Shown here: positions 27,094-31,790 of the stretch, piece by piece
Layout of the letters: every line of letters starts with the position of its first letter
Position numbering within the stretch: the stretch's first letter is position 1
NCBI RefSeq assembly: GCF_900230285.1
Contig: NZ_OCNK01000001.1
Span: 682,001 to 746,000, forward strand
From: Blastococcus haudaquaticus
GTDB taxonomy: Bacteria > Actinomycetota > Actinomycetes > Mycobacteriales > Geodermatophilaceae
Direction: 5' to 3'
DNA length: 64,000 nucleotides
Notes under the pieces: model-generated
The model's database searches: none
Told to the model about the DNA's origin: nothing
What the model saw: the letters and a program-made list of their open reading frames with translations, nothing else
Position numbers and translations under genes: made by a program

Positions 27094-28335
27094 GTGCGGA
27101 CGCCCGAGGAAGAGCTCGCCCGCGCTCTCGCGCGCTACGAGTGGGTCCTGGCCAACGTCGCCGACGGGATCTACGGCCTCGACGCCCACGGCCGGGTGGA
27201 GTTCGTGAACCCCTCGGCGGTCCGCATCACCGGCTACCCGCCCACCGAGCAGCGCGGCCACGACCAGCACGCCATCCTGCACCACCGTCGTCTCGACGGC
27301 TCCCCCTACTCGCGCGAGGACTGCCCCGTCTGGAAGGCCCTCCGCAGCGGGCACACCGTGGCCGCCGACGACGAGGTGTTCTGGCGCAAGGACGGCACCC
27401 CGGTGCCGGTCGAGCTGATCGCCGTCCCGACCGTCGAGGACGGTGAGGTGACCGGCGTCATCGTGTCCTTCCGCGACCTGACCGAGCGGCGGGAGGCGGC
27501 GCAGCAGGCCGCAGAGATCGACCGGCTGGCCCGGGAGGCCGCCGCGTCGCGCGCTCTCTCCGACCGGCTCCAGCAGGCGCTGCTCACCCCGCCGCCCGAG
27601 CCCGACCACCTGCACGTCGTCGTCCGCTACCTGCCGGCCGGCCACGAGGCGCAGGTCGGCGGGGACTGGTACGACGCCTTCCTGCAGCCCGACGGCGCGA
27701 CGATGGTCGCGATCGGCGACGTCGTCGGCCACGGCAGCGCCGCCGCGGCCGCGATGGGGCAGCTGCGCGGCATCCTCCGCGCCCTGGCCTACGACAACGA
27801 CGAGCCACCGGCGGCGACCCTCGGCCGCGTGGACCGGGCCGCGCGGGGGCTCGCCGTCTCGACGCTCGCGACCGCGATCCTGGCTCGCGTGGAGCGGCAT
27901 CCCGACGTCCCGGTGACCGGGCAGCGCGTAATCCGGTGGAGCAACGCGGGCCACGTCCCCCCGCTGCTGCTGGCGCCGGACGGCACCTCACGGGTGCTCG
28001 CGACGAGCCCCGACCTGATGCTCGGCGTGGATCCGTCCGCCACGCGCCGGGACCACACCGTCGACCTCGACAACGGGCACACCCTGCTGCTGGTCACCGA
28101 CGGCCTGGTCGAACGTCGGGGCTGCGACCTGGACCAGGGCATGGCCCGCCTCCAGGCCGCGCTGCGCGACCTGGGCGGGAAACCGCTCGACGAGGTGCTG
28201 GACACGGTTCTCGACCGGCTGGTGCCCCGGGCCGGCGAGGACGACGTCGCCGCCGTCGGCATCCGGGCCTATCCCGAGGACCGACCGCGCCCGGCGGAGG
28301 CCGGACCCAACCGACTGCCCCCCGGCGTCGAGTGA
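27094..28335 (+). CDS. PAS domain-containing SpoIIE/RsbU-type PP2C phosphatase
   Basis: A 413-aa cytosolic sensor-phosphatase. A PAS domain (about 15-130: YEWVLANVADGIYGLDAHG, EVFWRKDGTPVPVEL, FRDLTERREA) is joined by a coiled linker to a SpoIIE PP2C domain (about 185-400). Metal-binding Asp motifs are GGDWYDAF, AIGDVVGHG and LVTDGLVERR. Such proteins dephosphorylate anti-anti-sigma factors in partner-switching stress pathways. The partner is not adjacent, although an RsbW-like ATPase lies at 54.9 kb. GTG start with GAGGAGG 5 nt upstream. Confidence 0.93.
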   Translation: MRTPEEELARALARYEWVLANVADGIYGLDAHGRVEFVNPSAVRITGYPPTEQRGHDQHAILHHRRLDGSPYSREDCPVWKALRSGHTVAADDEVFWRKDGTPVPVELIAVPTVEDGEVTGVIVSFRDLTERREAAQQAAEIDRLAREAAASRALSDRLQQALLTPPPEPDHLHVVVRYLPAGHEAQVGGDWYDAFLQPDGATMVAIGDVVGHGSAAAAAMGQLRGILRALAYDNDEPPAATLGRVDRAARGLAVSTLATAILARVERHPDVPVTGQRVIRWSNAGHVPPLLLAPDGTSRVLATSPDLMLGVDPSATRRDHTVDLDNGHTLLLVTDGLVERRGCDLDQGMARLQAALRDLGGKPLDEVLDTVLDRLVPRAGEDDVAAVGIRAYPEDRPRPAEAGPNRLPPGVE

Positions 28336-28670
28336 CGCCGGCCCCCTCCCCCGACGGGAGGGGGCCGGCGGCGCACTCTGTCGATGACGATGGTCGTCTC
28401 GTTCAGGCCGACCTCGGCCGTGACCACCCGCTCCCCCTTGCCCACGGGGGCGAGGGTGCGGACCTTCCACTCCCCGGGAGCGGCGAAGAACCGGAACTCA
28501 CCCTCGGGGCTAGTGACCACCTCGGCGGTGAACTCGCCCGTCCCGTCGAGGAGTCGGACGTAGGCGCCGGCCACCGGGGCGCCGTCGTGCCACACCTGGC
28601 CCTGGATGACCGTCTGCGTGCTCAGGTCGATGCCGGCCAGGCCGCCGCCCTGCTTCGGTGCTCCGCACAT
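28269..28670 (-). CDS. sseC: DUF1416 protein SseC with an unusual C-terminal read-through
   Basis: A 133-aa protein. Residues 1-98 are a standard DUF1416/SseC domain (MCGAPKQGGGL, VIQGQVWHDGAPVAGAYVRL, GEFRFFAAPGEWKVRTL, VGLNETTIVI), found next to thiosulfate sulfurtransferase genes in actinobacteria. The family normally ends just after NETTI. Here no stop occurs, and the frame runs through the terminator hairpin at 28336-28370 and 67 bp into the convergent phosphatase gene. This adds a Pro/Gly/Arg-rich tail of about 34 residues. It starts 6 bp after the sulfurtransferase stop. Confidence 0.85.
   Translation of the reverse strand: MCGAPKQGGGLAGIDLSTQTVIQGQVWHDGAPVAGAYVRLLDGTGEFTAEVVTSPEGEFRFFAAPGEWKVRTLAPVGKGERVVTAEVGLNETTIVIDRVRRRPPPVGGGGRRHSTPGGSRLGPASAGRGRSSG
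28336..28370. terminator. Hairpin between the phosphatase and sseC genes
   Basis: Perfect 15-bp stem CGCCGGCCCCCTCCC / GGGAGGGGGCCGGCG with loop CCGAC, starting immediately after the phosphatase stop. It is symmetrical enough to act in both directions. It lies inside the extended sseC frame. Confidence 0.8.
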
Positions 28671-28676
28671 GTCAGC

Positions 28677-29504
28677 TCACTTCTCGATCGGGACGCCGAC
28701 GAGCGAGCCGTACTCGACCCAGCTGCCGTCGTAGTTCTTGACGTCGTTCTTGCCGAGCAGCTCGCGCAGCACGAACCACGTGTGGCTCGAGCGCTCGCCG
28801 ATCCGGCAGTAGGCGATGGTCGCCTTCGAGTCGTCGAAGCCCTGCTCCGCGTAGAGCTTCTCCAGCTCCTCGTCGGACTTGAACGTGCCGTCCTCGTTGG
28901 CCGCCTTGCTCCACGGGATGTTCTGCGCGGTCGGGACGTGCCCGCCCTTCTGCGCCTGCTCCTGCGGGAGGTGCGCCGGGGCGAGGATCTTGCCGGAGAA
29001 CTCGTCGGGCGAGCGGACGTCGATGATGTTCTTCGAGCCGATGGAGGCCACGACCTCGTCGCGGAAGGCGCGGATCGAGAGATCGGGCTCCTGGGCCGTG
29101 TACTGGGTGGCCGGGCGCTCGACGGCGTCCTTGGACAGCGGACGCCCGTCCAGCTCCCACTTCTTGCGGCCGCCGTCGATGAGCTTGACGTCCTGGTGGC
29201 CGTAGAGCTTGAAGTACCAGTAGGCGTAGGCGGCGAACCAGTTGTTGTTGCCGCCGTAGAGGACCACGGTGTCGTCGTTGCCGATGCCGCGCGAGGACAG
29301 CAGCGCCTCGAAGGCGCTCTTGTCGACGAAGTCACGGCGCAGCGGGTCCTGCAGGTCCTTCTTCCAGTCCAGCTTGACGGCACCCTCGAGGTGGCCGCCG
29401 TCGTAGGCGCTGGTGTCCTCGTCGACCTCGACGAAGACGAGACCGGGGGTCCCGAGGTTCTCCTGGGCCCAGTCGGCGGTGACGAGCACGTCGGTGCGGC
29501 TCAT
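28677..29504 (-). CDS. Thiosulfate sulfurtransferase (rhodanese), CysA2/CysA3/SseA type
   Basis: A 275-aa protein of two rhodanese domains that transfers sulfane sulfur from thiosulfate to thiol acceptors. Domain 1 (about 1-140) is inactive-type (YDGGHLEGAVKLDWKKDL). Domain 2 holds the catalytic loop AYCRIGERSSHTW with the active Cys at residue 233. It matches mycobacterial CysA2/CysA3 and, like them, precedes sseC. ATG with ACGGAGGAACC upstream. Expression is probably under the leader region at 29541-29815. Confidence 0.93.
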   Translation of the reverse strand: MSRTDVLVTADWAQENLGTPGLVFVEVDEDTSAYDGGHLEGAVKLDWKKDLQDPLRRDFVDKSAFEALLSSRGIGNDDTVVLYGGNNNWFAAYAYWYFKLYGHQDVKLIDGGRKKWELDGRPLSKDAVERPATQYTAQEPDLSIRAFRDEVVASIGSKNIIDVRSPDEFSGKILAPAHLPQEQAQKGGHVPTAQNIPWSKAANEDGTFKSDEELEKLYAEQGFDDSKATIAYCRIGERSSHTWFVLRELLGKNDVKNYDGSWVEYGSLVGVPIEK

Positions 29505-29549
29505 TGGTGGTTCCTCCGTAGATCGGTGCGGATGGTCTGGTGCGGATGG

Positions 29550-29684
29550 TCAGGTGCGGGCCGGGACGGCCCGCACGGCGATCAGCTGGAGCTCGCAGCG
29601 GAGCGGTCCGTCCGGGTGACGCCGGCTCGCGACGGCGGCGGACCGATGCGCACGTACGTCGACGTGGCGGGACGGTGCAGTCAT
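29550..29684 (-). CDS. Possible second leader ORF, 44 aa
   Basis: ATG at 29684 opens MTAPSRHVDVRAHRSAAVASRR... and closes 45 nt before the sulfurtransferase start. The RHVDVRxxRSAAVA stretch resembles the RHVDLxRVASALC core of actinobacterial leader peptides but lacks the terminal cysteines. The last codons lie in a strong hairpin. It may be a degenerate or duplicated leader, or chance. Confidence 0.35.
   Translation of the reverse strand: MTAPSRHVDVRAHRSAAVASRRHPDGPLRCELQLIAVRAVPART
29554..29576 (-). terminator. Attenuator-like hairpin upstream of the sulfurtransferase gene
   Basis: Perfect 9-bp stem GTGCGGGCC / GGCCCGCAC with loop GGGAC, 50 nt before the sulfurtransferase ATG. It lies in the leader, together with a repeated GGTGCGGATGGTC at 29525-29551. 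Candidate attenuator or ribosome-site masking stem. Confidence 0.55.
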
Positions 29685-29740
29685 TGCAGGAAGGACCTTC
29701 GGACGGCGGACAGGGCGCGTCTGGACGGTCGGAACCGACC

Positions 29741-29815
29741 TCAGAAGGTCGGACAGAGGCAGCTGCCGACGCGGCACAGGTCAACTGTGCGGCGAGAGGT
29801 CAGCAGGGTGCCCAC
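29741..29815 (-). CDS. 24-aa cysteine-rich leader peptide of the sulfurtransferase operon
   Basis: GTG at 29815 encodes MGTLLTSRRTVDLCRVGSCLCPTF, then TGA; read it as MGTLLTSRRTVDL plus CRVGSCLCPTF. The RR-x-VDL-x-RV-x-S-x-LC pattern is that of the actinobacterial leader peptides in front of sulfur genes, and the three late Cys codons would stall ribosomes when cysteine is short. A TACTCT -10 box lies 6 nt before the GTG, so the transcript would start at the peptide. It is 237 nt upstream of the sulfurtransferase. Mycobacterial cysA2 operons are known to carry polycysteine upstream ORFs. Confidence 0.8.
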   Translation of the reverse strand: MGTLLTSRRTVDLCRVGSCLCPTF

Positions 29816-29832
29816 GGCGCGAGAGTAGCCGA

Positions 29833-30159
29833 TCACGACCGGACCCCGGCATGGGCGTCTACCAGAGCGGTCAGTTCCTCCGGACGCGGCGCGCCGCTGC
29901 TGCGGCCGATCAGCTGCCCGTCCCGGTCGAGGTAGAACAGCGTCGGCGTCAGGCGGACGTCGAGCTCGCGCACCTCCTCGAGGTGGCTCTCCGCGTCGAC
30001 CTGGACGACGGCAAGCCCCGGTCGGGTGGCCTGCAGCTGGTGCAGCCGCGCCTTCGTGGCCCGGCAGGGGCCGCAGAACGCGGTGGAGAACTGCACGACC
30101 GTCAGGTCCGCGTCACCCGGCCGCACACCGAGCCGGCCGAAGGCGGCGTTCCCGCTCAC
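29833..30159 (-). CDS. Thioredoxin-fold protein (ThiX-like)
   Basis: A 108-aa thioredoxin-fold protein with a CGPC active site (QFSTAFCGPCRATKARL) and the cis-Pro loop RLTPTLFYLDRDG. No signal peptide. It occupies the position of mycobacterial Rv0816c (thiX) between the sulfurtransferase and the lmeA homologue. GTG start preceded by GGAGGTGAGC. It is likely to supply reductant for sulfur transfer or general disulfide reduction. Confidence 0.9.
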   Translation of the reverse strand: MSGNAAFGRLGVRPGDADLTVVQFSTAFCGPCRATKARLHQLQATRPGLAVVQVDAESHLEEVRELDVRLTPTLFYLDRDGQLIGRSSGAPRPEELTALVDAHAGVRS

Positions 30160-30221
30160 GCGCTCACCTCCCGCCCTCCGGACGCACCCGTCGCCGGCAC
30201 CAACTCCACCGGGTCGGTGGG

Positions 30222-30917
30222 CTATTCCACCGCGCTCAGGACCGTGTCGTCGGCCTCGACCCGGACGTCGACGCCCTGGGCGGCCGGCCGGACGTCGACG
30301 AGCTGCAGGCCGAAGGGCAGCGCCGGCACGGTGTAGCGCAGGTCGAGCAGGCCCGCGGCCCGGTCGAGCAGGAAGTCGGGCACCTCGACACCCGCACCCG
30401 CCGCCTCGTCGACGTCGACCACGAGATCGTGGCCGTCGAGGGTCACCTGACCGGTCGCGGTGAGCCGGACCTCCTGCCCCAGCAGCTCGACGGTGCGCGT
30501 GATGCGCAGGCCGTCGCCCTCCCGGGACAGCTCGGTGTCGGCCCCCAGTTGCGCCGACAGCAGCGCGTAGGACAGCGTCGCGGTCCCGTCCACGCGCTCG
30601 ACGGGCACCTCCCGCACCGATCCCGACAGCACGCCGGAGAGCGGCACCTCGACCCCACGCAGGACGACGTCGGCCCGGGTGCCCTCCGGCTGCCCCAGCT
30701 GAGCGGCCGTGAGGGCGATGGCCACCTCGTCGTACCGGCCGCCCACGGCCTGCGTCAGGAACGGGAAGCCGGCGATGTCCACCTCCGGCGTGCCCGCCAA
30801 GCCGCCCTGCTCGGCGAGCTGCTGCGCCACCTGGTTCTCCGCGTACCCGACGGAGACGCGGTCGGCCAGGACCAGCAGACCCAGCACGAGCAGCCCGACC
30901 ACCAGCAGCGCCTTCAC
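30222..30917 (-). CDS. DUF2993 lipid-binding protein (LmeA-like)
   Basis: A 231-aa exported or membrane-anchored protein. The N-terminal hydrophobic signal/anchor is KALLVVGLLVLGLLVLAD, followed by a DUF2993 beta-rich domain (IAGFPFLTQAVGGRYDEVAI, VPLSGVLSGSV, LPFGLQLVDVRPAAQGV). The mycobacterial homologue in this position, LmeA (Rv0817c), binds phosphoinositides and supports lipomannan elongation. Whether that pathway exists here is unknown. Confidence 0.9.
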   Translation of the reverse strand: MKALLVVGLLVLGLLVLADRVSVGYAENQVAQQLAEQGGLAGTPEVDIAGFPFLTQAVGGRYDEVAIALTAAQLGQPEGTRADVVLRGVEVPLSGVLSGSVREVPVERVDGTATLSYALLSAQLGADTELSREGDGLRITRTVELLGQEVRLTATGQVTLDGHDLVVDVDEAAGAGVEVPDFLLDRAAGLLDLRYTVPALPFGLQLVDVRPAAQGVDVRVEADDTVLSAVE

Positions 30918-30947
30918 ATCGTCCCCTGCGTCACGGCGTCCCGTGCC

Positions 30948-31790
30948 TCACAGCACCATCTGCAGGGCGAGGGCCACGGGCGCGCAGGCCGCGAAGGGCA
31001 GGACCGCCTGGACCACCGACAGGGCCCACGGGTCGACCTCGGGGGTGCGCCCGTCCTCGTCCGCCGCCGTGGCCTCGACGGCGACGTAGCTCGCCACCAG
31101 CGCGACCATCGCCGTCACCCCGGCGAGGGCCGCACCCAGGACGAGGGCGGGCACCGCACCGGCCGTCCCGCCCACGTGCCGCCCGAGGAAGGCGACCAGA
31201 GCACCGGCGGCGACCGACAGGACGAGGCCGATCAACCCCCGCGGCACCCCGGTGGCCAGGTAGGGGCGGGGCAGCACCAGGTCGACCAGATGCCCCACGA
31301 GCAGCGCGACCCCGACCGCCAGCAGGGCCACCAGCGCCCGGTCGTGCCCCTCGTGCGTCCGGCCGAGCAGCAACAGGGCGGCGAGGGCGGCCACCGCGCT
31401 GATCATCAGCACCGTGCCCGCGAGGGAGGCCACGAGGTCCTCGCGGGGCCGCCGGACCATCTGCTGCACCACGGACGCGAGGAAGCCGAGCCCGAGCACC
31501 ACGAGGAGATCGCCCAGTTCGGGGCGGGCCGGCAGGACGAGCACCAGGTCCGCCGCCACCGCGGCAGCCGCGCCCACCGCCAGCGCACCGGCGAACCCCT
31601 GGATGCCTGTCACGACCACCCAGGTGAGGACGAGCCCCAGCTGGAGGACCAGGACGGCGCCCAGCCGTCCGCGATCGCCGAACAGCTCCGGCAGGCCGGC
31701 CACCAGCGCCACCGCGAGCACGGTGAGGGCCGCCGGCTGGAGGTGGTGCACCCGCGCGGGGAGCGCGGACCGCAGCACCGGGGAGTTCAC
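30948..31790 (-). CDS. Hypothetical polytopic membrane protein, 280 aa
   Basis: Not recognised. It has about eight hydrophobic segments with very short loops (for example LTVLAVALVAGLPELF, LGLVLTWVVVTGIQGFAG, LLVVLGLGFLASVVQQMV, ALVALLAVGVALLVGHLV), and no nucleotide-binding or catalytic motif. Start at the GTG at 31790, with CACGAT 6 nt upstream. It shares the lmeA orientation, 30 bp upstream of it, and may be cotranscribed. It is divergent from the GlnR-type regulator. Confidence 0.75.
   Translation of the reverse strand: MNSPVLRSALPARVHHLQPAALTVLAVALVAGLPELFGDRGRLGAVLVLQLGLVLTWVVVTGIQGFAGALAVGAAAAVAADLVLVLPARPELGDLLVVLGLGFLASVVQQMVRRPREDLVASLAGTVLMISAVAALAALLLLGRTHEGHDRALVALLAVGVALLVGHLVDLVLPRPYLATGVPRGLIGLVLSVAAGALVAFLGRHVGGTAGAVPALVLGAALAGVTAMVALVASYVAVEATAADEDGRTPEVDPWALSVVQAVLPFAACAPVALALQMVL

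Follow-up and report, generated by a model that had tools for sequence, protein, structure and literature searches.

Upstream of a thiosulfate/3-mercaptopyruvate-type sulfurtransferase (rhodanese) gene in Blastococcus haudaquaticus, a short open reading frame with three cysteine codons raises the question of which gene such a leader would regulate, and by what means. The window analysed here is a stretch of 64,000 nucleotides from contig NZ_OCNK01000001.1; all features are given in window coordinates and lie on its minus strand. The original prediction had listed a GTG-initiated peptide of 24 codons with a TACTCT box 6 nt before it, a second leader-like frame, a perfect 9-bp hairpin and the sulfurtransferase ribosome site, all of which are present. 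It proposed that cysteine starvation stalls ribosomes on the Cys codons and changes the folding of the leader, which would raise expression of the sulfurtransferase and SseC.

The leader peptide and its conservation in Geodermatophilaceae

The leader ORF (VGTLLTSRRTVDLCRVGSCLCPTF, 29741..29815) runs from a GTG start at 29815 to a stop codon ending at 29741, encodes the peptide V/M-GTLLTSRRTVDLCRVGSCLCPTF and carries Cys at codons 14, 19 and 21. The TACTCT sequence (29822..29827) resembles a -10 box and predicts a leaderless start, with transcription probably beginning at the leader GTG itself. Just ahead of this box ends a thioredoxin-like gene (29833..30159, PF00085). On the other side of the leader lies the sulfurtransferase gene (28677..29504, PF00581, ATG at 29504), preceded by its Shine-Dalgarno sequence GGAGGA (29512..29517) and followed by a gene for a DUF1416 protein (28269..28670, PF07210, 1.7e-39), which we take to be the SseC of the original prediction.

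The window peptide scored 29.4 bits against the NCBIfam model NF042934 ('putative leader peptide', cis_reg_atten), above its cut-off of 27; this is a broad domain model that fixes neither ligand nor target. Against NF042933, the equivalog model of the mycobacterial Ms5788A family of Cys-rich leaders, it reached 41.4 bits (E 8.3e-11), below the cut-off of 45. A search of positions 28000-31000 with 4227 Rfam models at E up to 1 gave no match over the leader, the sole match being a sub-threshold Actino-ugpB inside the sulfurtransferase gene. Judged by its sequence, the window leader belongs with the Ms5788A-like leader peptides of mycobacteria: it is of the cysteine type and predicted to be leaderless.

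Conservation was analysed across the family. A sulfurtransferase search of 112 Geodermatophilaceae genomes found the gene in 106, and 109 loci from 103 genomes were retained, leaving out three genomes with partial sulfurtransferase pieces only (G035, G066 and G081) and four second matches that were either partial or distant (G053 C6, G098 C378, G090 C60 and G105 C17). A leader stands upstream of the sulfurtransferase in 102 of these 109 loci or, counted by genome, in 102 of 103. Six of the seven loci without a leader are second sulfurtransferase copies, found in six genomes (L037, L058, L101, L108, L109 and L110); the seventh, L105, is the one match of genome G070 and has a sulfurtransferase and DUF4395, but no leader could be recognised ahead of them. 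A TANNNT sequence occurs 5-8 nt before the leader start in all 102 loci, compared with 0 of 3570 control positions, at a distance of 6, 7 or 8 nt in 87, 13 and 2 loci, respectively. The codons for Cys14 (TGC) and Cys21 (TGT) are the same in 102/102 loci, and Cys19 is encoded by TGC in 84. The predicted cysteine-type leader, and the conservation of peptide and Cys codons in relatives that was proposed as a check on it, were thereby borne out across the 102 loci.

The sulfurtransferases themselves fall into two types, with about 92-96% and 80-84% identity to that of the window, which coexist within the same genera (g3 and g9) and so suggest transfer of the gene between genera. In addition, the genome of the window encodes two more leader-like peptides (L112 and L113, on G000 C6), which precede a TauE/SafE-type sulfite exporter gene and a sulfite/nitrite reductase gene. 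Both score below the NF042934 cut-off (26.0 and 21.1 of 27); their positions would fit a genome in which a few sulfur genes are under leader control.

DUF4395 and its remnant in the spacer

An intact DUF4395 gene lies between leader and sulfurtransferase in 52 of the 102 loci, while the leader is present without one in the window and in 49 of the 102. The second frame of the window, an ORF of 44 codons with an ATG start (29550..29684, holding RHVDVRAHRSAAVA), had been put forward as a nested leader peptide and a new variation on such systems. It does start behind a Shine-Dalgarno sequence, and its RHVDV is similar to the RRTVDL motif found in leaders of this type. However, a 46-codon stretch containing it had no NCBIfam match, it contains a single Cys, and its termini align with those of the intact DUF4395 of relatives: the first 17 residues share 13 identities with the start, and the last 17 share 10 with the end, of the intact protein of locus L003 (PF14340, E 1.4e-44), the middle being deleted. 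The frame is also not preserved across DUF4395 losses. We consider a second leader peptide extremely improbable and reject this frame as a regulator; it is a DUF4395 relic. Since this relic is recognised from how its two ends compare with an intact DUF4395 in a relative and has itself no Pfam match to PF14340, it is a remnant and not a working member of the family.

The perfect 9-bp hairpin (GTGCGGGCC-GTCCC-GGCCCGCAC, 29554..29576) corresponds to the last DUF4395 codons (an RRALPAR-type end), a segment that in most relatives is rich in GC and prone to forming hairpins. Its stability shows no excess over what coding and codon usage predict (mean z of -0.48 in the 52 intact-gene loci versus -0.25, sd 1.09, in 260 control segments), and its proposed role as a dedicated regulatory stem is left unsupported.

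On the sulfurtransferase tree, the absence of DUF4395 requires 24 changes, at least 8 of them imposed by strongly supported branches, a count that sulfurtransferase transfer between genera could distort. By this estimate, DUF4395 would have been lost at least eight times in Geodermatophilaceae. Relics recognisable by eye remain in 12 DUF4395-less loci, in frame in five (L002, L016, L063, L075 and L099) and out of frame in seven (L009, L046, L048, L064, L081, L092 and L095). The idea that the relic ORF is kept for coupling gains nothing from these numbers, as 5/12 is close to the one third expected by chance. We also observed a very similar deletion scar (MTAPSCRTHVRR or MTAPSCRTRVRR, then GAGCTGCACCTGATC) in L009 as in L046 and L048; these belong to two genera and stand apart on the sulfurtransferase tree, and a shared operon transfer is possible.

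A modelled RNA switch and its target

The leader region can be divided into four helices. P1 (29757..29813) is a hairpin inside the leader coding region with the apex stem GCACAG/CTGTGC, in which leader codon 10 takes part; this codon is ACA in 90 of the 102 loci, although ACA makes up 1.5% of the Thr codons in neighbouring genes. The pairs of P1 are nearly invariant and for this reason show little covariation. Leaders fold more stably than their synonymous variants (mean z of -1.40 for 89 distinct leaders); for the window leader alone, the fraction of variants that were as stable was 0.095, which is not significant. P2 (29723..29740) directly follows the leader stop codon and has one U-U mismatch in the window, and P3 (29702..29721) is a GACG/CGTC stem. 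The fourth helix, P4, would join the anti-SD GACCTTC (29744..29750), located shortly 3′ of the Cys21 codon, to the complementary GAAGGTC (29694..29700), the former DUF4395 Shine-Dalgarno sequence.

Support for these helices was sought in an alignment made without structure (A1; 52 rows: the window and 51 of the 53 loci in which the distance from leader to sulfurtransferase exceeds 300, L104 and L107 being excluded). P3 is almost invariant, with 98.6% of cells paired. Changes on both sides of the helix occur at 4 of 7 pairs in P2, and likewise at 4 of 7 in P4, where 79.1% of cells are paired. The cells changed on both sides numbered 29 in P4 versus 12.8 after shuffling, and 73 versus 31.8 in the whole structure (0/500 shuffles as high in each case), counts that are inflated by the relatedness of the sequences. 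Two other measures for P4 were not above the shuffles (pairs with a both-side change, 221/500; further pair types, 500/500). Among the pairs listed, the independent pairs pointed in the same direction (67/130: 3.5 the same way and 0.1 the other way, of 5) and were too few for significance. RNAalifold on A1 returned neither P2 nor P4 and no covarying pair. An alignment-free comparison of 51 distinct pairs gave a mean of -10.1 kcal/mol for cognate anti-SD:SD duplexes versus -8.3 for those mixed between loci, with 0 of 10000 permutations as low. Conservation of the stems, which the original prediction had named as a check, is seen in the compensatory changes of P2 and P4 and in the stronger cognate duplexes, but not with RNAalifold.

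The effect of a paused ribosome was derived from a model in which the ribosome covers the RNA to a point 12 nt beyond where the A-site codon begins and the RNA behind it is ignored; opening costs are given in kcal/mol. Placing Cys21 in the A site lowered the opening cost of the DUF4395 Shine-Dalgarno sequence from 6.90 in the free RNA to 3.62 (51 loci; L104 and L107 excluded here, in the controls and in the codon scan), the site becoming easier to open by more than 1 in 43 loci and harder by more than 0.5 in one. At the former DUF4395 site of the window, the corresponding values were 6.57 and 2.34. A scan of A-site codons, restricted to leaders of exactly 75 nt (45 loci), confined the effect to codons 20-22, centred on Cys21: the cost was 6.0-7.5 at codons 2-19, dropped to 3.8 at codon 20, 3.6 at codon 21 and 3.65 at codon 22, and was back at 5.6-6.3 at codons 23-25. 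In the window, it was 2.3-2.4 at codons 20-22 versus 3.3-6.9 at codons 2-19. The observed effect of 3.28 compares with 1.79 (sd 0.21, 40 swaps) when spacers were exchanged between loci, and with 0.84 (sd 0.15, 40 shuffles) when the 12-nt tail was shuffled.

An alternative test, in which the upstream RNA may re-pair downstream, showed no net opening: the mean unpaired probability was 0.28 in the free RNA and 0.29 at Cys21, and in the window it fell from 0.34 to 0.05. In both folding tests, a pause at Cys14 did not open the site, so that in the model a hard starvation halting all ribosomes at Cys14 would not induce. At the relic or former DUF4395 site of 46 DUF4395-less loci (L102, L103 and L106 being excluded from this and from the sulfurtransferase test below), the cost went from 7.88 to 5.67 and the site was easier to open by more than 1 in 32. 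The codon scan of the DUF4395-less loci, limited to the same leader length, gave 5.9, 5.7 and 5.3 at codons 20-22 versus about 7 elsewhere.

The sulfurtransferase ribosome site behaved otherwise. Its opening cost in the 46 DUF4395-less loci stayed at 6.2-6.7 in the free RNA and with A-site codons 10-28, that is, at all pauses tested. For the Cys21 pause, the mean change was -0.12, with 3 sites easier by more than 1 and 9 harder by more than 0.5 (L104 and L107 again excluded), and the window values were 5.32 free and 5.34 paused. Direct gating of the sulfurtransferase, which we tried as a candidate, is left unsupported by this flat profile. The mechanism of the original prediction holds in the model insofar as the Cys codons are placed where a paused ribosome would change the folding of the leader, but not in its supposed effect on the sulfurtransferase ribosome site. 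As modelled, the direct target of the switch is DUF4395 and not the sulfurtransferase. The latter has its own ribosome site, unconnected to the leader in the model, and any effect of the leader on it could thus be only indirect.

We give a probability of about 0.62 to the reading that the window leader is a cysteine-responsive leaderless translational attenuator working like Ms5788A. With ample charged Cys-tRNA, ribosomes would clear the leader, and GACCTTC would pair with GAAGGTC of the next ORF and close its Shine-Dalgarno sequence. With scarce Cys-tRNA, a ribosome paused at Cys21 would cover the anti-SD while P2 and P3 could still form, and the Shine-Dalgarno sequence would open. The leader and its conservation, the promoter-like box, the locus-specific complementarity, the gene order and the DUF4395 relic are established from the sequences; the RNA switch is a modelled one and its dependence on cysteine is presumed. 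In relatives, the gated gene would be DUF4395, followed by the sulfurtransferase and DUF1416. Because the DUF4395 of the window has decayed to a relic of 44 codons, the switch would now gate a fragment. An indirect route to the sulfurtransferase might still exist, either coupling via the relic ORF or the shielding of an otherwise untranslated spacer from transcription termination.

Three other explanations have to be weighed against this attenuator. Pausing on the Cys codons might refold the leader so as to open the sulfurtransferase ribosome site itself; this would suit the conserved Cys codons, the position of the leader ahead of the sulfurtransferase in the window and the 49 loci without an intact DUF4395, and some DUF4395-less loci whose leader tail is able to pair around the Shine-Dalgarno sequence of the sulfurtransferase (L092 and L099, for example, at -14.1 kcal/mol), yet the insensitivity of that site to every pause tested makes the idea improbable. 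Equally, the leader might be a leftover that regulates nothing in this strain now that DUF4395 is gone, as could be expected from a gated gene reduced to a relic, from the unresponsive sulfurtransferase site and from relics that are in frame no more often than by chance. We judge this unlikely, for all 49 DUF4395-less loci retain an intact peptide and promoter-like box together with the Cys14 and Cys21 codons, also in clades in which several species share the loss, and on average the modelled switch is still seen at the relic site.

A more serious candidate, although still a doubtful one, is that the leader acts mainly on transcription, with translation of the leader or relic deciding Rho or hairpin termination before the sulfurtransferase. 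Its retention in all 49 loci without a gated gene suggests that it serves something besides the DUF4395 ribosome site, and premature termination in M. tuberculosis has reportedly been linked to translated uORFs (D'Halluin et al. 2023). Against this stand the window sequence, which lacks a U-run behind P2, P3 and the 9-bp hairpin, and the locus-specific anti-SD:SD complementarity, for which such a mechanism has no need. The translational attenuator, which relies on this complementarity, remains our preferred reading. The same retention in 49 loci argues that the leader still serves the sulfurtransferase and DUF1416, and we infer that it does so via coupling through the relic or via an effect on transcription. 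More tentatively, a codon-resolved cysteine switch built for DUF4395 may in Geodermatophilaceae have outlived its repeatedly lost target and been reused for the sulfurtransferase operon, with the relic mini-ORF or termination within the spacer as the link, in which case decay of the gated gene would have turned a translational switch into an operon-level one.

Comparison with known attenuators

Cysteine-responsive leaderless ORFs of mycobacteria are already known (cited in PMC9031893 and PMC9094748), and the window leader would add one more. In the ilvB1 system of M. tuberculosis, described in PMC13236596 as attenuation by transcription termination with a U-tract, a leader ORF likewise senses charged tRNA through key codons; in contrast to it, no U-tract terminator is seen at the window leader.

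Within the order, NF042933 matched at E 0.01 or better in 130 of 150 genomes, 36 of them above the cut-off, with no Geodermatophilaceae genome above it among the matches listed. The covariance model of A1 found 77 of the 150 genomes at E 0.01, most strongly in Geodermatophilaceae. The order thioredoxin-leader-DUF4395-sulfurtransferase occurs in named loci of Rhodococcus, Nocardia, Mycolicibacterium, Mycobacterium, Saccharothrix and Lentzea. Leaders without a DUF4395 match were found in Micromonosporaceae loci and in one locus each of Rhodococcus marinonascens, R. spongiicola and Mycobacterium hubeiense. Of 68 loci scanned outside the family (L126-L193), 8 had no leader by the pattern used. The pause effect was clear in several Mycolicibacterium loci, with a decrease from 9.1 to 2.3-2.7 at the Cys tract of L137 and further cases in L146, L172 and L185; it was absent or reversed in other loci outside Geodermatophilaceae, where some DUF4395 starts were guessed and may be wrong. 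In three Lentzea loci (L154, L166 and L188), the tail of the leader reads GCACGACG and complements CGTCGTGC, which lies shortly 3′ of a GGAGG about 60 nt beyond the leader; the principle is the same, the sequence unrelated.

A literature search that took in a minority of subscription journals found no account of the present arrangement in Geodermatophilaceae, nor of DUF4395 as a gated gene or of its repeated loss. These results would extend the mycobacterial cysteine attenuator to a family of soil actinobacteria, in the form of a simple RNA switch with an opening predicted to depend on a single invariant Cys codon. That the gated gene was lost repeatedly while the leader stayed in place amounts to a natural experiment on the role of the leader for genes further down the operon, and a false lead is corrected, the apparent second leader being gene debris.

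The closest known counterpart is Ms5788A, in which a paused ribosome reportedly makes the following gene's ribosome site accessible. The window leader differs from it in having three spaced Cys (14, 19 and 21) where mycobacteria have a Cys run, in missing the equivalog cut-off, in the loss of DUF4395 and in a compact P2-P3-P4 arrangement without an Rfam family match. It shares with Ms5788A a short ORF, here predicted to be leaderless, with the motif TSRR.VDLCR and Cys codons near its end, the same slot in the thioredoxin-leader-DUF4395-sulfurtransferase order of the Mycolicibacterium loci and, according to the pause model, the same predicted mode of action.
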